38,207 nucleotides of DNA from an uncultured Oscillospiraceae bacterium (lineage in GTDB: Bacteria > Bacillota > Clostridia > Oscillospirales > Oscillospiraceae), in contig CANROF010000025.1 in the NCBI GenBank assembly GCA_947632155.1, positions 1-38,207 on the forward strand. Direction: 5' to 3'. Shown here one piece after another: positions 17,632-38,207 of the stretch. Position numbers and translations under genes: made by a program. Numbering within the stretch: position 1 is the stretch's first letter; every line of letters starts with the position of its first letter. Under the pieces are notes generated by a model that was not told the origin of the DNA, did no database searches, and saw nothing but the letters and a program-made list of their open reading frames with translations.

Positions 17632-17970
17632 TTATCCCCCCAGCACCCGCCGCCAGTAGGTCAGGACGATGGTGAGGGCGATCGCGTCGAAAATGAGATA
17701 CGCGAGAAAGCACAGCCACAGGCCCACACGCGCCAGCGGGCGGCGGCGGAAGTGGTAGAGCGTCCAGAGGGACGCGGGAATGAGGACGAGCTTCAGCCCC
17801 AGCGCGGCCCAGGGGGTGCGGAGGATTCCGCCGAAAAAAGGGTTTATCTCGAAGCTGCCCGGGATGAGGCGCAGGCCCACGGTGGTGTAGATGAAGTCCA
17901 GAAGGCTTAAAGCCTGCGTCCCCACGGCAAGCCAGAGATAGAGACGGGAGCGGGGAAAAGAGCGGTCCAT
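17632..17970 (-). CDS. Small integral membrane protein, DUF5658-like
   Basis: 112 aa with about three to four hydrophobic helices (LYLWLAVGTQALSLLDFIYT; WAALGLKLVLIPASLWTLYH; VGLWLCFLAYLIFDAIALTIVL). The LLDFIYTTVGLRLIPGSFEINPFF segment (landmark LLDFxxT...EINPF) resembles DUF5658-type proteins of unknown function. AAGGAGG precedes the ATG at 17970. Its first 48 codons and upstream region are duplicated at 18283-18440, inside the repeat array. Confidence 0.7.
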   Translation of the reverse strand: MDRSFPRSRLYLWLAVGTQALSLLDFIYTTVGLRLIPGSFEINPFFGGILRTPWAALGLKLVLIPASLWTLYHFRRRPLARVGLWLCFLAYLIFDAIALTIVLTYWRRVLGG

Positions 17971-18002
17971 GGGGTCGCCTCCTTGAATGCGTCTACGGGG
18001 GG

Positions 18003-18897
18003 CCGGTGTGACACGTGGACAGTTCTTTAGTCCCACCAGCGTGCGCACTGGTGTTACAAAAAAACCGTCCCCACTGTCCCACCTACTCAGTAGAACAGAC
18101 GAAAAAAAATCTATCGGTAACAGAGCACCTTCCCGCGGGACTGAGGGACGGTTTTTTCGTCACACCGGAGCAAAGCGGAGGTGGGACTAAAGAACCGTCC
18201 CTCTGTCACGCCGGTAGGGGGTTGGATCAAGTTATGTCAGGCTGTGACAAAGTTGGGACAAAAGAACCGTCCCCTTGTCTCTGCCGCCGAAGAAAGGGTT
18301 TATCTCAAAGCTGCCCGGGATGAGCCGAAGGCCAACGGTGGTGTAGATGAAGTCCAGAAGGCTTAAAGCCTGCGTCCCCACGGCCAGCCAGAGATACAAT
18401 CGCGAGCGGGGAAAAGAGCGGTCCATGGGGTCGCCTCCTTGAATGCGTCTACGGTAGGCCGGTGTGACACGTGGACGGTTCTCACCAGCGTGCGCGCTGG
18501 TGTTACAAAATAACCGTCCCCTTTGTCCCACCTCCTCAGTCACCGAGCGCTTTCCCGCGGGACTGAGGGACGGTTTTTTTGTCACACCGGAGCAAAGCGG
18601 AGGTGGGACTAAAGAACCGTCCCTCTGTCACGCCGGTAGGGGGTTGGATTTTGGGACAAAAGAACCGTCCCCTTGTCTCACCCTTGTCTCACCCGCGGGA
18701 CTGAGGGACGGTTTTTTTGTCACACCGGAGCAAAGCGGAGGTGGGACTAAAGAACCGTCCCTCTGTCACGCCCGCAGGGGGTCGGATTATGTATTTTTAA
18801 TTGCGCTCAATGATACAAAAGAACCGTCCCCTTGTATCATAAAAGAACCGTCCCCTTGTATCACGAAGTTGGGACAAAAGAACCGTCCCCTTGTCTC
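18003..18897. repeat. Array of ~15 REP/BIME-like palindromic repeats (core AAGAACCGTCCC)
   Basis: Plus-oriented cores lie near 18061, 18190, 18264, 18510, 18613, 18661, 18750, 18819, 18842 and 18878. Minus-oriented cores (GGGACGGTTYTTT-like) lie near 18015, 18144, 18472, 18566 and 18706. The flanking arms pair but differ between copies: GGGACAA/TTGTCTC, TGATACAA/TTGTATCA, GGGACT/CTGTCAC. A ~95-bp unit with one minus and one plus core occurs three times (from about 18132, 18555 and 18690). This resembles REP/BIME elements mobilised by Y1-type (RAYT) transposases; no such gene is in the window. Confidence 0.85.
18232..18426 (-). pseudogene. Truncated duplicate of the DUF5658-like membrane protein gene
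   Basis: An ATG at 18426 with the same AAGGAGG leader as the intact copy encodes about 48 residues nearly identical to its N-terminus (MDRSFPRSRLYLWLAVGTQA start). At EINPFFGG the frame then runs into a REP-like repeat and ends after 64 residues. This comes from a ~0.4-kb tandem duplication (about 17828-18226 with 18284-18646) whose left junction lies in the repeat array. Not expected to be functional. Confidence 0.85.
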
Positions 18898-19940
18898 GGC
18901 GTTGCAAGACGTTGCGCTACTTCACCTCTTATTGTGGGGAGTTGATCTTCGTCAGTTAATCCTGCGGCAAGATAGTTCCAATATTGTTCCGCAGTTTGCC
19001 CGTTGCTCAGCTTCTCATCCTTGTGCACCGGATCATGTGCCCAAGCGGTTAGTACGCCGTAAGCTGTGGCGGCTTTCGCCACAATTTTGCCTCCTGCTGT
19101 AGTCCCTAATGGCATATTACCTTTTATTACATTAATAACCTCTTCTTGTGTCAAACCCTTAGATAGTTCGGCTATATTCATTACAACTGCGTTTGCGAGT
19201 GCATTATTGTATTCAGCGCTTTTATCTGTATATCCTTTTTCGCTAATGTATTTTTGAAATTCCTCAAGTTCAGCGGTCCCAAGCAGGTTTCTTGCACCCA
19301 ACAATCCAAAAGTAGCAGCCGCACCACTTGCACAATCACCAACTCTTCCAATGACCTCTCCTGCGCCCATCGGTCCAAAGGCAGAATCCTGGAATGCCTG
19401 AACCGCCGCATCATTCACTTTGTATGTGCGCTCGTTTCCGTCTCCATCTGTCACGGTATAGATTGTGTATCCGTCACCTGTACTCTCGGCTGTCATCTTC
19501 CACCCGTTAGTGAGTATTATGGTCCCGTCATTAAGTACACCGCTAAAAACGCCATTCTCAACGCCATATTTAAGCCCCTTATATACTTTGAAGACAGCCT
19601 CTTCATTGCCCTCATAGTATTTCTTAAACACGTCGAAAAACCCTGAGATTTCCTCAGTACCATTTTCATTCTTGGCAGTTAAATCGGTCAGTTTCAATGC
19701 ACCCTCGTCACCTTCCAATTTTGCCTCTGCCTCTTTGGGATATGTTGTCAGTTCCTCCTCGGTGTACGCGGCTTGGAATGCCGTATTTACTGCGCTCAAG
19801 AGCGCTAAGTCGTGCGCCTCGTTGGCCTTTTCTATGTACCCACTGTACGCCACCGCGCCCACGCCGGCCAAAATTGCCAGCACCGCGATCACGACCACCA
19901 GCTCCACCAGCGTGAAGCCGTTTTGTTTACGCTTTTGCAT
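18861..19940 (-). CDS. Prepilin-like surface protein with N-terminal methylation motif
   Basis: 359 aa. The N-terminus has a short basic leader and the class III prepilin signal NG^FTLVELVVVIAVLAILAG (cleavage after Gly, Glu at +5), then a hydrophobic helix of about 22 residues. The remaining ~320 residues are acidic, soluble and unrecognised, longer than a typical major pilin, so this may be a minor pilin or pseudopilin-like adhesin. GC is clearly lower than in neighbours beyond the helix. The last residues (RQGDGSFVPTS) and the stop are encoded by palindromic repeats. AGGAGG precedes the ATG. Its only upstream region is the invertible segment at 19991-20255, currently without a promoter facing it. 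No other pilus genes are nearby. Confidence 0.85.
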   Translation of the reverse strand: MQKRKQNGFTLVELVVVIAVLAILAGVGAVAYSGYIEKANEAHDLALLSAVNTAFQAAYTEEELTTYPKEAEAKLEGDEGALKLTDLTAKNENGTEEISGFFDVFKKYYEGNEEAVFKVYKGLKYGVENGVFSGVLNDGTIILTNGWKMTAESTGDGYTIYTVTDGDGNERTYKVNDAAVQAFQDSAFGPMGAGEVIGRVGDCASGAAATFGLLGARNLLGTAELEEFQKYISEKGYTDKSAEYNNALANAVVMNIAELSKGLTQEEVINVIKGNMPLGTTAGGKIVAKAATAYGVLTAWAHDPVHKDEKLSNGQTAEQYWNYLAAGLTDEDQLPTIRGEVAQRLATPRQGDGSFVPTS

Positions 19941-19990
19941 TGTAAAAACCTCCTCATAAAGCTTCGGCCTGCACCCTCCCCGGCCGGATG

Positions 19991-20015
19991 GGACATTATT
20001 GATATAATGTCACGC
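19991..20015 (+). repeat. Left inverted repeat (IRL) of the switch
   Basis: 25 bp, beginning GGACATTATTGATATAATGT, identical in reverse complement to 20231-20255. The repeat itself contains a dyad GACATTAT-TGAT-ATAATGTC, which is 8-bp arms round a 4-bp asymmetric centre, as expected for a tyrosine-recombinase core site. Confidence 0.9.
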
Positions 20016-20157
20016 GAGCCCGGACGGAGAAGGCTCGGACGGGCAAAATTTGCGGAGGCTAATGGCCCCGGACGGCAAAAATAGGCACGCTTTCGCGCGA
20101 CCGGCCCGTCAGGGCCCGTCGCGGCGTGGTCAAATTTGAAAATTTAAGAAAAAATTG

Positions 20158-20186
20158 TTGACATTGCGCCTTTAGGGTGCTACTAT
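20158..20186 (+). promoter_or_regulatory. Mobile sigma-A promoter inside the invertible segment
   Basis: A perfect TTGACA (20158-20163), a 17-nt spacer and TACTAT (20181-20186), with an A/T-rich upstream stretch (AATTTGAAAATTTAAGAAAA) like an UP element. In this orientation it reads towards the 3' end of the recombinase gene. Confidence 0.85.
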
Positions 20187-20230
20187 GTAAGGGAAGAATT
20201 TCATGAGGCTTGCGTTTTCCCCGGACGTGT

Positions 20231-20255
20231 GCGTGACATTATATCAATAATGTCC
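20231..20255 (-). repeat. Right inverted repeat (IRR) of the switch
   Basis: The exact reverse complement of 19991-20015. In the present orientation its 8-bp dyad is followed after 7 nt by a T run (about 20261-20267), so it may also act as a weak terminator for the outward promoter. Confidence 0.9.
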
Positions 20256-20257
20256 GC

Positions 20258-21148
20258 CTATTTTTTTGCCCTTTTTCCTCTTCCGCGCCTTTTCGCCCGG
20301 GGAGGATTTTTCATTTTCGGAGCCAGCCCGAGGGCGTTTACGAGCCTCCGATGCTCCGCGCCGCTGGATTTGGTGTAAATGCGGGTCGTCTCGATGCTGC
20401 TGTGGCCCAAAACGTCCGCCAGCTTTACCACGTCGTGGTTGGCCTCGTAAAACGTCCGGGCAAAGAGCTTGCGGAGGTTGTGGGGAAACGCCTTCGCCGC
20501 CCGGACCTTGGCGCGGAACGCCGCCGTTTTCACGATGGCCCAGACGCGCCGCCGGTCCAGCGGCTTGCCCTTTCTCCCCCGGAAAATGACGCCGGAGTCG
20601 ATGCCCTGCTCCCCGGCGTACCGCTCCAGCGCCCGCCCCACGTCGTCCGGCACCATGATCCGCCGGGTCTTCCGCTTGCAGGTGACGACAACCTCGCGAT
20701 TTTTCACCGCCTCCAGCGTGAAAAACCGCAGCTCCGACACCCGGATTCCCGTGGAGCATATCGTCCCGATAATGAGCCTGTCCCGCCCTTTGACCGCGCC
20801 CAAAAGCGCCTCGTAGTCCCCTCTGGTGAGCTCCCTGTCCTCCGGGCAGTAGGCGTCCCGCTGGATGACAAGTCTCTGCGTCCCGCACCCCTCCCAGCCC
20901 ATGAATTTGAAGAACGCGAACAGCGACTGAAGAATCGTGTTGACGCTCCCGGGCTTGTAGCCCTTTTCAATAAGCCCCCTCTTAAACCTCCCCGTTTCCT
21001 CCCCGGAAGCCTCCCGCCCGCCAAGGAACGCCGCGTAAGCCCCCACGTCATGCAAATACCGCCAAACCGTATGCCGGCTTCGCTCGTGCAAAATGAGGTC
21101 TGCCTCGAAACCGGAGACGGCCTCCGGGGTGATATATTTTGTGTCCAT
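20258..21148 (-). CDS. Tyrosine site-specific recombinase (putative promoter invertase)
   Basis: 296 aa, XerC/D-size. A SAM-like core-binding N-terminal domain spans about residues 10-90. The catalytic domain has R136 (STGIRVSEL), a probable Lys at about 158-160 (CKRKTRR), H223-x-x-R226 (FPHNLRKLFA), H249 (LGHSS) and nucleophile Y258 (TRIYTK). The C-terminal ~20 residues are strongly basic. AGGAGG precedes the ATG. The stop codon lies 2 bp from the right inverted repeat, which strongly suggests that this enzyme inverts the adjacent segment. In the present orientation the mobile promoter would produce antisense RNA against it. It is separate from the integrase at 23260-24603. Confidence 0.92.
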   Translation of the reverse strand: MDTKYITPEAVSGFEADLILHERSRHTVWRYLHDVGAYAAFLGGREASGEETGRFKRGLIEKGYKPGSVNTILQSLFAFFKFMGWEGCGTQRLVIQRDAYCPEDRELTRGDYEALLGAVKGRDRLIIGTICSTGIRVSELRFFTLEAVKNREVVVTCKRKTRRIMVPDDVGRALERYAGEQGIDSGVIFRGRKGKPLDRRRVWAIVKTAAFRAKVRAAKAFPHNLRKLFARTFYEANHDVVKLADVLGHSSIETTRIYTKSSGAEHRRLVNALGLAPKMKNPPRAKRRGRGKRAKK

Positions 21149-21281
21149 AATCGCGCCTCCTAAATAAGTATGTGACTATTTTGCCCCAAACCGGCGCGGC
21201 AATCTATCAAATCGGGGATGTTCCTTGCATAAACCGGGGCCCCGGGAAAAAAGAATTCTTATTTTCGGGAGCGGGAATGAA

Positions 21282-21310
21282 TTGACATGGACGCGGCTTG
21301 CTGATATAAT
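21282..21310 (+). promoter_or_regulatory. Strong sigma-A promoter of the NifU-like/GGGtGRT operon
   Basis: Consensus TTGACA (21282-21287), a 17-nt spacer and consensus TATAAT (21305-21310), about 60 nt before the ATG at 21373. Confidence 0.9.
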
Positions 21311-21372
21311 TTATTAAGGTACACCTTTCCGGCGCCACGGCGCCGAGTAACACATAAAGAAGGGAGTTCAAC

Positions 21373-22065
21373 ATGATCTATTCCGCTGAAGTTGAAAAAA
21401 TGTGTCCCGTCGCCAAGGGCGCGTATCACGGCCCGGCCCCCATACCCGAGGAGGGCAAGTGGGTCCAGGCCAAGGAGATAAAGGACATCTCCGGTTTCAC
21501 CCACGGCATTGGCTGGTGCGCCCCCCAGCAGGGCGCCTGCAAGCTCACCCTGAACATCAAGGACGGCATTATCGAGGAGGCCCTGGTGGAAACCATCGGC
21601 TGCACCGGCATGACCCACTCCGCCGCCATGGCCGGCGAGATCCTCATCGGCAAGACCATCCTTGAGGCCCTGAACACCGACCTTGTGTGCGACGCCATCA
21701 ACACCGCCATGCGGGAGCTGTTTTTGCAGATCGTCTACGGCCGCAGCCAGTCCGCTTTCTCCGAGGGGGGCCTTGTCATCGGCGCGTCCCTGGAGGACCT
21801 GGGCAAGGGCCTGCGCGGACAGGTGGGCACCATCTTCGCCACCAAGGCCAAGGGTCCCCGGTATCTGGAGCTCACCGAGGGCTACATCACCCGCCTGGCC
21901 CTGGACGAGGAAAACCAGATCATCGGCTATGAGTTCGTACATATCGGCAAGATGATGGAGGCTATCAAGAAGGGCACCGACGCCAACGAGGCCATGAAGG
22001 CCGCCACCGGCACCTACGGACGCTTCAAGGACGCCGCCAAGTACATCGACCCGCGCCACGAATAA
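21373..22065 (+). CDS. Iron-sulfur cluster assembly scaffold protein, NifU-N-like
   Basis: 230 aa. The NifU/IscU-like fold is suggested by GIGWCAPQQGACKLTLNIKDG, with Cys near residues 49 and 56, and by ETIGCTGMTHSAA with the conserved scaffold Cys followed by hydrophobic helices. The C-terminal region (residues 130-230) is longer than in classical IscU. Family members in Clostridia are annotated as Fe-S scaffold proteins and commonly sit next to a GGGtGRT gene, as here (16-bp gap). Its precise partner and client proteins are unknown. Codon bias is very strong, which with the consensus promoter implies high expression. Confidence 0.82.
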   Translation: MIYSAEVEKMCPVAKGAYHGPAPIPEEGKWVQAKEIKDISGFTHGIGWCAPQQGACKLTLNIKDGIIEEALVETIGCTGMTHSAAMAGEILIGKTILEALNTDLVCDAINTAMRELFLQIVYGRSQSAFSEGGLVIGASLEDLGKGLRGQVGTIFATKAKGPRYLELTEGYITRLALDEENQIIGYEFVHIGKMMEAIKKGTDANEAMKAATGTYGRFKDAAKYIDPRHE

Positions 22066-22081
22066 GAAGGAGGATGGAACA

Positions 22082-23083
22082 ATGGCACTTTTTGAAAGCT
22101 ATGAGAGAAGAATAGACAATGTCAACGCCGTCCTCAACGAGAACGGTATCGCCTCCCTGGAGGAGGCCAAGAAGATCTGCGACGACGCCGGCGTGGACGC
22201 CTACAACATCGTCCGCGGCATCCAGCCCATCTGCTTTGAGAACGCCTGCTGGGCCTACACCGTGGGCGCGGCCATCGCCTTAAAGCGCGGCGTCAAGTCC
22301 GCCGCCGAGGCCGCCGAGGTCATCGGCATCGGCCTGCAGAGCTTCTGCATCAAGGGCTCCGTGGCCGACGACCGCAAGGTGGGCCTGGGCCACGGGAACC
22401 TGGGCGCCATGCTCCTCAGGGACGACACCAAGTGCTTCGCGTTCCTGGCGGGCCACGAGTCCTTCGCCGCCGCTGAGGGCGCCATCGGCATTGCCCGCAA
22501 CGCCAACAAGGCCCGCAAGACCCCCCTGCGCGTCATCCTCAACGGCCTTGGCAAGGACGCCGCCCAGATCATCAGCCGCATCAACGGCTTCACCTATGTC
22601 CAGACCCAGTTTGACTACTACACCGGCGAGCTGAAGATCGTCCGGGAGATCCCCTACTCCAACGGCGAGCGTGCGGCTGTCCGCTGCTACGGCGCCGATG
22701 ACGTCCGCGAGGGCGTTGCCATCATGCACCACGAGGGCGTGGATGTCTCCATCACCGGCAACTCCACCAACCCCACCCGCTTCCAGCACCCCGTGGCCGG
22801 CACCTACAAAAAAGAGTGCATCGAGCAGGGCAAGCGCTACTTCTCCGTGGCCTCCGGCGGCGGCACCGGCCGCACGCTGCACCCGGACAACATGGCCGCC
22901 GGCCCCGCCAGCTACGGCATGACCGACACCATGGGCCGTATGCACTCCGATGCCCAGTTCGCCGGCTCCAGCTCCGTCCCCGCCCACGTTGAAATGATGG
23001 GCTTCTTGGGCATGGGAAATAATCCCATGGTCGGCGCCACCGTCGCCGTCGCCGTGGCCGTGGACCAGGCGATTAATAAGTAA
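22082..23083 (+). CDS. GGGtGRT protein
   Basis: 333 aa. The eponymous GGGTGRT is at residues 259-265, following SVAS. Other conserved stretches are QPICFENACWAYTVGAA, VGLGHGNLGAMLL, AGHESFAAAEGAIG and MGRMHSDAQFAGSSSVPAH. The protein has several Cys (51, 56, 89, 118, 202, 246). This is a conserved family of unknown biochemical function. Its constant pairing with the NifU-like scaffold suggests an Fe-S-dependent or Fe-S-handling role, which is inference. AAGGAGG precedes the ATG. Strong codon bias as for its neighbour; terminator at 23138-23179. Confidence 0.9.
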   Translation: MALFESYERRIDNVNAVLNENGIASLEEAKKICDDAGVDAYNIVRGIQPICFENACWAYTVGAAIALKRGVKSAAEAAEVIGIGLQSFCIKGSVADDRKVGLGHGNLGAMLLRDDTKCFAFLAGHESFAAAEGAIGIARNANKARKTPLRVILNGLGKDAAQIISRINGFTYVQTQFDYYTGELKIVREIPYSNGERAAVRCYGADDVREGVAIMHHEGVDVSITGNSTNPTRFQHPVAGTYKKECIEQGKRYFSVASGGGTGRTLHPDNMAAGPASYGMTDTMGRMHSDAQFAGSSSVPAHVEMMGFLGMGNNPMVGATVAVAVAVDQAINK

Positions 23084-23259: not shown

Positions 23260-24603
23260 TTATTCCTCAGAACCGTTTTTGATATCCGTTTTGTACATAT
23301 CGTTCAGTGCGGAGATACCTTTGTTGCGAGAATTCTCGGTTAAATGATTCAAATATATACTTTGCGTAACTTGCGGTTTTTTGTGTCCAAGTCTGCGTTG
23401 TATGTAAATGAGCGGGGCGCCGCTTTCCTCCAACATGGTGGCATGGGTGTGACGCAGAGAATGGAAGTCGTAGCCTTCAATACCAATCTTCTCGTGGATG
23501 ACCTTGTTGACGTACTGCATGTTACGGAAATTGTTATACAATCCGTTGTCCCTGACAAATATGAAATGAACTGGGTTCGCGGTTTTCCGGACAGTAATAG
23601 GAGAGTCGTGTTGGGGGTTTCTGGGGGGCTTGCCGCCTTTTCCGTAATACATAGGAAAAGTGGAATAGTACTCGAAAAATTTATCCCCATAATACTTTTT
23701 GGCTTTCAGGTAATGGTCACGCGTGCGCTGTAAGAGGGCAACGAGATCATCATCCAGGTCGATAGTCCGATAGGAGTTGTACTTGGGGGCGGAGAAGTAC
23801 CAATACCCCTTCCCCGCCTCAGACGTTCCGTTCTTTTTCTTTTTGTCCGCCTCGGAACGGGTCTCGTCCTTGTGCCACTGGATTTGGCGGTTTACACTTA
23901 GGGTCTTATTCTTGAGGTCTATATCCTCCCAGGTCAACGCGAAAGCCTCGGCGATACGAAGGCCGCAGCGATAGCCGAGTTGTATTGGAAGGTGGTAATC
24001 ATCGCCCTCAGGAAAACGCTCAAATATAGCCCGCATATTATCTTCGGTAAGGAAGATGTGTTCCTTGCTGCGAGTCTCAATTGTAGGAGGCTTCCCGTTT
24101 TGGCCGATGGACGGTATCCCATTGGCGGGAGAAGAAAGAACGATCTGGTTATCGACCGCGTATTTGAAACACTTGGTCAGAATGCCCTTTACGGAAGAAA
24201 TAGTGTTGGGACTGTAGCCCTGATCAAACAGATAGTACAGGAAGTCCTGAATATCCTTTTTGGTCAGCTTGGCTGCATTTTTGTTGCCCAGAAGGGGCAT
24301 AAGGTAAAGGCGGATCTTCTTCTTATACCCGGCAACTGTTGTCTCCTTGCATCTCTTTGCAACATCCGCATCGATCCATTCATAAAGCAGGTCCCCCATG
24401 GATATGTCTGAGGGGGCCGCCAAAACCCCGCGGGTCTCGTAGGCCGCGTAAGCCTGCTGCCCCGCCTTTCGAGCCTCTCGTCTGGTTCTGAAGCCGCTCT
24501 TGGTCACCGATTTGCGGTGACCGTCAACGCCCATGACCTCAAACCGATACTGATATACCACCTCATTCTTGTTCTTTTTCTCATAAACCAATAGCTGTCC
24601 CAT
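23260..24603 (-). CDS. Tyrosine integrase of an integrative element (Tn916/phage type)
   Basis: 447 aa. Three-part layout: an N-terminal AP2-like arm-binding region (YQYRFEVMGVDGHRKSVTKS, followed by FRTRREARKA), a SAM-like core-binding domain (about 65-155), and the catalytic domain with R216 (YRCGLRIAEA), H381-x-x-R384 (FHSLRHTH), H407 (LGHKK) and Y417 (QSIYLNH). The start at ATG 24603 is chosen because AAGGAGA lies 8 nt upstream; a TTG 10 codons earlier is possible. The promoter is at 24776-24804. It sits at the edge of the element, next to the conserved GGGtGRT terminator, as integrases usually do. No excisionase was identified. Confidence 0.93.
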   Translation of the reverse strand: MGQLLVYEKKNKNEVVYQYRFEVMGVDGHRKSVTKSGFRTRREARKAGQQAYAAYETRGVLAAPSDISMGDLLYEWIDADVAKRCKETTVAGYKKKIRLYLMPLLGNKNAAKLTKKDIQDFLYYLFDQGYSPNTISSVKGILTKCFKYAVDNQIVLSSPANGIPSIGQNGKPPTIETRSKEHIFLTEDNMRAIFERFPEGDDYHLPIQLGYRCGLRIAEAFALTWEDIDLKNKTLSVNRQIQWHKDETRSEADKKKKNGTSEAGKGYWYFSAPKYNSYRTIDLDDDLVALLQRTRDHYLKAKKYYGDKFFEYYSTFPMYYGKGGKPPRNPQHDSPITVRKTANPVHFIFVRDNGLYNNFRNMQYVNKVIHEKIGIEGYDFHSLRHTHATMLEESGAPLIYIQRRLGHKKPQVTQSIYLNHLTENSRNKGISALNDMYKTDIKNGSEE

Positions 24604-24624
24604 GTTTTTCGTCTCCTTTGCGTG

Positions 24625-24760
24625 TTTAGCCAAAAATGTCGAACCTTACTCGTTGCGTGTAACGCACGAATTTGCAAGTTCTATGAGGTACATACGCAAA
24701 GAAGCTTGCAATTATTTCGCGATCCAAGGTCAAATCGAGACGACGAGAGCCAAATTGACC
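24625..24760. promoter_or_regulatory. Integrase leader with inverted repeats
   Basis: Between promoter and gene lie GGTCAA..TTGACC (24728-24760), TTGCAAG..CTTGCAA (24672-24711), TGCGT-GTA-ACGCA (about 24655-24667), and at 24625-24639 the word TTTAGCCAAAAATGT, which nearly matches the operator half-site of the island promoter boxes (TTTAACCAAAAATGT). These are candidate repressor or integrase arm sites. Confidence 0.5.
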
Positions 24761-37357: not shown

Positions 37358-37600
37358 GTGAACTACTCGGCTATGAATAACCGAGCATCATGTTACGCTG
37401 CCTCGCGGCAGCTTGGCACTCATTTTTCCTACTCGATGGATTGTTAGGCACGATTCCCAACCGTGCGACCAAGCATAAATAGGCTTTCACCGGTGTTCCT
37501 ACCGGCATAGCTGGGGTATAACGAATTCAGGCAGTAGCCTTCGTTCGATCCATATAGAATTCTCGAAGACCTTCCTCTTTGATGTTTTTGCCCGCGTTGG
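37358..37600 (-). ncRNA. Omega-RNA (reRNA) scaffold at the right end of the TnpB element
   Basis: After the tnpB stop (37527) the minus strand continues for ~170 nt with several stems: CCGGT..ACCGG, GCACGG..CCGTGC-like, GCTGC..GCAGC, and finally CTCGG-TTATTCATA-GCCGAG before the end GTAGTTCAC (37366-37358). This is the organisation of IS605-type right ends, where the RNA overlaps the tnpB 3' end and the sequence beyond the boundary is the guide. The 5' limit is approximate. The putative guide is read from 37357 leftwards (GGACTTTCTCTCACCGGAAG). Confidence 0.75.
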
Positions 37601-38207
37601 CGTCACGCATGACAATTGCCCCGCATTCGGGACATATCCATACGCGGTCTTTTAGAGTCAGGTCTTTGTTGACGTAGCCGCACTCGTTGCAAGTCTTACT
37701 GGAAGGGAACCACTTATCTATTACAATAAGATGTTTCCCTTGTTCCTCAAGCTTGTACTTCAGAAACATGCGGAACATTCCAAAACCGTTATCCAAGGTA
37801 GATTTACCAAGCTTCAAAGAACGGGATATTGCGCTCAGATTGAGGTCTTCTACACAAACGGCATCGTAGGAATTGGCTATCTCCCTACTGAGCTTATGGC
37901 AGAAGTCTTTTCTCTGGTTAGAGATATGTTCATGAAGTTCTCGGATACGGTGGAGCTGGTATTCGTAATTCTTTGAACCATACTGCATGCGGCTGAGCTG
38001 CCGTTGCATACGGGCGAGTTTCTTTTCAGACTCTCTGTAATAGCGATGTCCTTCAGGGGACCGGCCCTGGTCATCGACATAGAAGTGCGGAGAGGAATAA
38101 TCCAAACCAATTGTCTTCTCTGGGGTAGGAAGCACTTCTTCTGGAGGGACGGATTCATATTCGAAAAGTAAAGCGCAAAAATACTCGCCTGTAGGGGTTT
38201 CGCTAAC
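37527..38207 (-). CDS. tnpB: RNA-guided endonuclease TnpB, C-terminal part (cut by window edge)
   Basis: 226 residues visible, open through the window end, so the N-terminal ~40% is missing. The RuvC triad is intact: D36 in TIGLDYSSP, E120 in VCVEDLNL, D202 in MRDANAGKNI. The zinc ribbon CNECG...CPECG (C173, C176, C192, C195) lies between the last two. These are diagnostic of IS200/IS605 TnpB, a programmable nuclease guided by omega-RNA. Whether a tnpA transposase accompanies it lies outside the window. No internal stop is seen, so the visible part looks functional. Confidence 0.93.
   Translation of the reverse strand, partial: VSETPTGEYFCALLFEYESVPPEEVLPTPEKTIGLDYSSPHFYVDDQGRSPEGHRYYRESEKKLARMQRQLSRMQYGSKNYEYQLHRIRELHEHISNQRKDFCHKLSREIANSYDAVCVEDLNLSAISRSLKLGKSTLDNGFGMFRMFLKYKLEEQGKHLIVIDKWFPSSKTCNECGYVNKDLTLKDRVWICPECGAIVMRDANAGKNIKEEGLREFYMDRTKATA

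Follow-up and report, generated by a model that had tools for sequence, protein, structure and literature searches.

A 38,207-nt contig of an uncultured Oscillospiraceae bacterium (here called the window, meaning the whole stretch analyzed) contains a short promoter-bearing segment between inverted repeats, with a tyrosine recombinase gene on one side and a type IV prepilin gene on the other. Comparison with the rest of the genome and with related genomes suggests that this locus very probably belongs to a multi-copy set of cassettes for phase variation of type IV pilins. Thirty-two cassettes with complete site pairs were tabulated, and taken together the set looks like a system for altering cell-surface display.

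The first-pass annotation of the window, made from its letters alone, had described a recombinase-controlled invertible promoter captured in the OFF state, and the local anatomy it gave was reproduced in full (Table 1). The two 25-bp arms are 100% complementary and 215 nt apart, and at spacings of 50 to 1,000 nt no other exact inverted repeat in the window is as long (the runner-up is 16 bp); base composition predicts about 6e-8 perfect 25-bp pairs within 1 kb by chance. Each arm holds a 20-bp site made of two palindromic half-sites flanking an asymmetric center. A promoter scan recovered the single strong promoter pointing away from the prepilin gene (TTGACA-17-TACTAT, 10/12 matches, with TG ahead of the second hexamer), an element also present in five other switches of the window's sub-group. 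As had been stated, no other promoter faces the prepilin from upstream: a scan of 18500 to 22500 gave no sigma-70-like site of at least 9/12 directed at it, and three minus-strand matches (first hexamers at 19697, 19232, and 18864) fall within the prepilin gene or at its end. The recombinase, ending 2 bp outside the right repeat, and the prepilin both matched the expected Pfam families, and arithmetic on the sequence places the start point after inversion about 113 nt before the prepilin ATG.

The prepilin had also been said to stand alone, and here the wider search gave a different picture. The window genome (2.5 Mb, 89 contigs) has three 20-bp sites at up to 3 mismatches, two in the window and one on contig C83, and its contig ends carry pieces of at least two further cassettes. 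At the end of C83, the visible half-switch has the same (OFF) orientation as the window; C2 starts with bases that are 90 to 100% identical to the flank of other switches; and a recombinase start at the end of C62, 85% identical over 46 amino acids (aa), may belong to either of these cassettes. A protein search of 60 relatives showed that several genomes of the genus, and one from another family, encode close recombinases, with more than 10 in genome G025 alone. Forty-eight stretches were examined for the site, and the 32 with a complete pair were tabulated; one or both sites were absent from the remaining 16 (L044, L045, L048, L056, L058, L060, L062, L067 to L073, L099, and L100), many of which are incomplete because the contig ends there. 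The tabulated cassettes come from 10 genomes of the same order, seven belonging to the window's Oscillospiraceae genus, two to one other family (G042 and G129), and one to another (G369); five of the cassettes, all from G025, have identical spacers and are not independent.

Every tabulated cassette consists of a recombinase homologous to that of the window, two inverted sites resembling GACATTAT-NNNN-ATAATGTC, and a strong promoter, and the order recombinase, site, 211 to 300 bp, inverted site was found in 32/32. In 30 of them, a GFTLVE-type pilin motif lies past the far site at a distance of no more than 926 nt; the other two are L055, which reaches its contig end there, and L098, with a cargo truncated by a contig end. 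Strand exchange by tyrosine recombinases requires matched site centers, which may change between pairs. The 4-nt centers are identical within the pair in all 32 cassettes and are of seven kinds (TGAT, AGAT, GGAT, AGGA, AAAT, TGGT, and CTGT), none of them self-complementary, and other bases of the site differ within the pair in 5/32. Within the genus, 7 of 34 genomes contain exact sites; almost all of these sites are paired, the singles lie near contig ends, and a reversed control pattern gave 0 matches. In an order-wide sample searched with a looser pattern, 9 of 394 genomes matched, and 5 had paired sites (G000, G025, G042, G129, and G369); the other 4 had a single or self-palindromic site match, and the reversed control matched once in each of 2 genomes.

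Because each site is nearly palindromic (8+4+8), as operators are, the 20-bp elements could be read as binding sites of a dimeric repressor in a fixed arrangement. This is very unlikely in view of the matched and never self-complementary centers, the pairing of exact sites across the genus, the Xer-like recombinase beside every tabulated pair (partly by construction, since pairs were sought beside recombinases), and the fact that one such segment has been found reversed between collinear flanks with its breakpoints at the sites.

Evidence that the switch inverts comes from the two orientations present in the family. With orientation called from the best promoter match (L036, L037, L038, L063, and L098 also have a 9/12 match in the other direction), the promoter points away from the cargo (OFF) in 28 of the 32 cassettes and towards it (ON) in 4, namely L039 and L042 in G025 and L053 and L054 in G020. 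When L052 (G002, OFF) is aligned to L054 (G020, ON), a 288-bp segment is 98% identical in the inverted direction versus 59% in the direct one, and the surroundings align in the same direction (right flank 94%, recombinase-side flank 78%, and recombinase body 92% identical). L055 gives the same spacer result against L054, although its contig ends at the far site. A 98%-identical segment lying inverted between collinear flanks of two species indicates that this type of switch inverts in nature. The original proposal of an invertible promoter is therefore supported at the level of the family, by both orientations, the matched centers, and the catalytic motifs of the recombinases, while in the window's own sub-group only one state was seen (discussed below). 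A single orientation in every relative, which the first-pass annotation had named as grounds for refutation, does not hold for the family.

The window recombinase keeps the expected catalytic motifs (GIRVSEL, HxxR, GH, and Y), and its closest solved structures are XerC-like, XerD, and XerA proteins. Its Phage_int_SAM_1 match is slightly below the cutoff for that domain, and it reaches no curated NCBIfam cutoff, the best being a XerA-like family at 119.5 of 220 bits. GIRxSEL is present in 31/31 cassette recombinases read. Because the cassette recombinases were chosen by the pattern HxxR...GH...Y, the presence of those motifs among them is not independent support.

These features suggest a mechanism in which the recombinase of the cassette would cross over between the inverted 20-bp sites and reverse the 215-bp segment, so that both states would arise within one population. 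In the ON state, the promoter would face left and the prepilin would be transcribed via a leader of about 113 nt. In the OFF state, as captured in the window, it would face right, leaving the prepilin silent and sending antisense transcription into the 3' end of the recombinase gene, and the hairpin in the spacer could stop read-through. As several related genomes hold many cassettes with different bodies, cassettes switching independently would put varying subsets of pilins on the surface. In 28/28 OFF cassettes, the promoter is aimed at the 3' end of the recombinase gene, which would also suit a scheme in which recombinase feedback by OFF-state antisense RNA is the main role and pilin expression is secondary. 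With a prepilin motif at the far side of the switch within 1 kb in 30/32 cassettes, we regard such a scheme as decidedly improbable.

Table 1. Features of the switch locus in the window (coordinates from the first base of the contig)
Feature	Positions	Strand	Basis and remarks
Tyrosine recombinase, 296 aa	20258..21148	-	Open reading frame (ORF) plus Phage_integrase, E 7.6e-25; stop 2 bp outside right repeat; proposed invertase
Left 25-bp inverted repeat	19991..20015	+	Holds 20-bp site GACATTAT-TGAT-ATAATGTC at 19992-20011
Right 25-bp inverted repeat	20231..20255	-	Same 20-bp site, inverted, at 20235-20254
Invertible spacer (proposed), 215 bp	20016..20230	.	Whole segment including arms, 265 bp
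Strong promoter, OFF state	20158..20186	+	Directed away from prepilin, antisense into 3' end of recombinase gene
Terminator-like hairpin	20085..20099	-	Strand of recombinase and prepilin; -29.4 kcal/mol, T-rich tail
AGGAGG ribosome-binding motif of prepilin	19949..19954	-	Recognized by eye; 8 nt before ATG
Type IV prepilin (type A), 359 aa	18861..19940	-	N_methyl, E 2.8e-9
AGAACCGTCCC-type repeat array	18175..18900	.	At and beyond prepilin 3' end; first repeat encodes last ORF residues

The pilins behind the switches combine a constant head with a changing body. Two body types were distinguished: type A, 408 to 448 aa when complete (L036, L038, L063, and others, with the window pilin also of this type), and type B, most of 474 to 559 aa, with a beta-rich C terminus in a low-confidence model. 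N_methyl was found in 8/8 type-A and 18/18 type-B pilins aligned, and the first 30 residues from GFTLVE have a mean identity of 80% (A) and 88% (B), compared with 37% (A) and 27% (B) for the remainder. In eight sister pairs, the recombinases are 92 to 99% and the pilin N termini 90 to 100% identical, and the pilin bodies only 23 to 38%. In a tree of the recombinases, pilin type switches at least 8 times; the tree was built by a quick method that leaves 10 of 28 inner branches open, omits L097 (gene cut by the contig start), uses spacer groups defined by length only, and has pilin type unscored for six rows. Searches of the bodies against Pfam returned only N_methyl as common to all, with no clear known domain. 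Weak single-member matches (type B, Big_2 0.026, Big_5 0.034, CBM77 0.018, and HsbA 0.0049; type A, Lsr2 0.0018) were not relied on.

The five G025 cassettes share 1.42 kb spanning the recombinase, switch, and pilin start (up to 1.70 kb in one pair) at 93 to 96% identity, and the recombinases of five pairs compared are 98 to 99% identical. Apart from this block, the 5 kb to each side have only a 34-bp match, in one pair. Type A follows two of these heads and type B the other three; pilins of the same type have identical N termini and bodies 26 to 38% identical. The reverse arrangement is found between L063 (family f1) and L097 (family f7), where the switches are unrelated (spacer 54%, leader 46%) and the recombinase end is 61% identical over 148 bp, whereas the rear of the pilin gene is 93 to 100% identical nearly to the stop codon, at which point similarity ends. 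L063 and L038, from one genome, have identical spacers and leaders and pilin starts at 97%, versus bodies at 47 to 70%, with 75 to 85% identity for some hundred bases beyond the stop. A comparison of 30 bodies gave 27 local DNA matches, 3 of which span the whole body. The bodies are mosaic.

We infer from these alignments that bodies are replaced by recombination in the conserved helix and the 3' flank. Beyond fast promoter flipping by the recombinase of each cassette, we lean slightly towards a second, slower layer, in which bodies would be swapped among cassettes, also across bacterial families, and the head (recombinase, switch, and signal helix) would be kept, with the AGAACCGTCCC repeat perhaps aiding the exchange. 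If so, the pilins shown on a single type IV pilus would be combinations from a large common pool of modular pilins. Five near-identical 1.42-kb heads at unrelated places in G025 could instead mark a small mobile element, whose recombinase and sites would move the 1.4-kb head and for which promoter orientation would be a by-product; the patchy spread of exact sites (7/34 genus genomes) and paired sites (5/394 order-wide) would fit this as well. Such an element is nevertheless unlikely: both sites lie inside the unit, around the promoter and not at the ends, the promoter keeps its position relative to the site, and the conserved block stops within the pilin helix or shortly past it, as homologous recombination would explain better than site-specific insertion.

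The repeat named above is found mainly behind pilin genes. The window genome has 18 exact copies of AGAACCGTCCC, 8 of them in the window array, and 15/18 follow large pilin genes. In the 32 cassette loci, 47 copies lie 3' of the pilin, 10 between switch and pilin, 0 inside, and 7 elsewhere, and 11/32 loci are without any copy. The repeat is a possible recombination handle for body exchange. Repeats of the AGAACCGTCCC/GGGACGGTTCT kind stand 3' of large pilin genes at 18045-18900 in the window and elsewhere in the window genome (G000) at C83:1479-1617 and C23:16668-16869. Downstream of the prepilin, a small membrane-protein-like ORF, recognized by eye, lies at 17632-18048, with a partial second copy at 18232-18585, within and beyond the repeat array.

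The window genome has its own type IV pilus operons, on contigs C23 and C11. The C23 operon encodes two T2SSE ATPases, a T2SSF platform protein (E 2.7e-61), and, with A24 peptidase domains at E 3.1e-28 and 1.6e-11, a type IV leader peptidase. It also encodes minor pilins, one pilin of 148 aa, and another of 376 aa, the latter related over its full length to the type-A pilins of the cassettes (hhalign E 3.6e-31); an ORF called PilO-like had no Pfam match. Because the N-terminal helix is common to the cassette prepilin and the pilins of this operon, the prepilin probably enters that filament, as a large modular subunit whose variable body may bind a target. Of the 7 genus genomes that carry cassettes, 6 have a strong pilus ATPase match. 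The distance from a cassette to the corresponding pilus operon is about 5 kb or less in G025 and G017, and no site was found in the stretches around the pilus operon of G032, G005, and G002. Near the start of the second pilus operon, the window genome (G000) has a 2,384-aa prepilin-type ORF (C11:27932-35086) with N_methyl barely over the cutoff.

Several observations weigh against phase variation of pilins, either in the family or at this locus. The coupling between cassettes and pilus is loose: cassette-bearing G020 shows only a pilus ATPase fragment, and 13/27 siteless genomes of the genus have a strong ATPase match (E below 1e-100), indicating that the pilus occurs without cassettes and that the two are not strictly coupled. 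The L098 cassette precedes a different protein without a Pfam match. Spacer terminators have no conserved polarity (14 in the promoter direction only, 6 in the opposite direction only, 10 in both, and 2 cassettes with none), and a conserved insulating terminator was rejected on that ground. Structure models of the pilins have low confidence, with mean predicted local distance difference test (pLDDT) values of 45.5 for full-length type A and 48.2 for type B, built on alignments of 2 and 3 rows, respectively, the type-A model with one extra leading residue. Many contigs of these draft assemblies end at a switch, and short repeats in drafts may be misjoined or averaged, possibly inflating spacer identity within genomes. 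The ON/OFF comparison is between species and in a sub-group other than the window's, whose members (the window, L036, L037, L038, L057, and L063) are OFF in 6/6, with a weak 9/12 promoter match facing the pilin in four of the six (not in the window). Last, the window pilin is without its C-terminal part, and this copy may be decayed.

That last point bears on the size of the prepilin, which the first-pass annotation had called unusually large. At 359 aa it is in fact short for type A, since it has no counterpart to the C-terminal part of its relatives and its last residues are encoded by the repeats: seven full-length type-A pilins, to which it is 32 to 38% identical, measure 408 to 448 aa, the L036 pilin (411 aa) aligns with it over residues 1 to 301 only, and no convincing match to a type-A tail was found nearby. 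The window pilin may still function as a short variant, or the copy may be decayed. Together with the uniformly OFF sub-group, the lost C terminus gives some room to the idea that the family switches while the window copy is decayed or locked, staying OFF with a repeat array where the end of its pilin used to be. We consider this possible but doubtful, because the repeats, promoter, ribosome-binding motif, and recombinase ORF are intact, the 25-bp arms, which decay would be expected to erode, are perfectly identical, and type-B pilins behind similar heads have very different C termini.

Possible carriers were sought with the recombinase: tblastn found 4 plasmid records (E up to 1e-40) and 1 phage record (E up to 1e-20), all 37 to 42% identical. 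A site pattern run on viral contigs hit 12 stretches, with one match apiece and none paired, probably by chance. Recombinase loci at about 46% identity or below were mostly siteless: at up to 5 mismatches, no site was found in L012 to L022, L024 to L030, L032, or L033, and L023 and L031 had only 5-mismatch matches. However, L065, L066, and L098, with recombinases at 46 to 47%, do have sites, so identity alone draws no line. L098 (G369:C56), from another family, has the same type of recombinase and switch and a cargo not recognizable as a pilin; a von-Willebrand-like appearance, noted by eye, was not upheld, as its 159 readable residues match no Pfam family. L038 (G020:C2) and L063 (G020:C11) have identical spacers and recombinases only 55% identical, as if switch segments swap between cassettes, with an assembly effect also possible.

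Neither invertible promoters nor modular type IV pilins are new in themselves. In Moraxella bovis, pilin phase variation reportedly occurs by DNA inversion of the pilin genes themselves, and the Piv enzyme is said to use a different chemistry; here, in contrast, the coding region is fixed and the promoter would flip, with 215 bp between the repeats and the pilin ORF starting outside them. The recombinase of the Mycoplasma penetrans mpl genes is reportedly encoded elsewhere, and recV is said not to be adjacent to cwpV in Clostridioides difficile. In both the window locus and the other cassettes, the promoter is inside the inverted segment. The cwpV/RecV system resembles them in pairing a clostridial surface protein with a Xer-family tyrosine recombinase and a small inverted segment, whose imperfect 21-bp repeats lie 195 bp from each other (PMC2784873), but differs in having its promoter outside the segment and a terminator in the OFF RNA. 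The Escherichia coli fimS switch (FimB/FimE) places a promoter between inverted repeats, with recombinases of the same locus and an ON/OFF surface fiber (PMC2784873); unlike the window family, with many cassettes, one recombinase each, and type IV pilins, it has a single switch and two recombinases, and it controls a type 1 fimbria.

As a family, the cassettes work like the P35/mpl lipoprotein genes of M. penetrans (PMC10502178), although those are lipoproteins in three clusters and these are dispersed type IV pilin cassettes with a recombinase each. Streptococcus sanguinis PilB provides a precedent for a big functional module grafted on a pilin and displayed by Gram-positive filaments; the abstract of PMC8179133 mentions no phase variation, and the cassette bodies, unlike PilB, have no clear known domain and vary greatly. 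A genome-wide survey (PMC5903667) places genes for fimbriae, flagella, and pili near invertible sites generally, and names signaling and chemotaxis as the commonest neighbors in Clostridia. The searches made of open-licence papers turned up no description of dispersed, self-contained pilin cassettes with their own recombinase, invertible promoter, and changing bodies.

If the system is real, uncultured gut Oscillospiraceae would gain a combinatorial pilus repertoire with a logic comparable to that of mycoplasma antigen families. It would also provide natural ON/OFF pairs and sets of matched sites for testing recombinase specificity, phage or immune selection on pili, and surface-gene transfer among gut families.

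Elsewhere in the window, positions 23260-24633 encode a phage-type tyrosine integrase and positions 37527-38135 an IS605 OrfB/TnpB-type protein (both by Pfam); with this second integrase and the OrfB/TnpB protein, the right part of the window looks like a mobile element.

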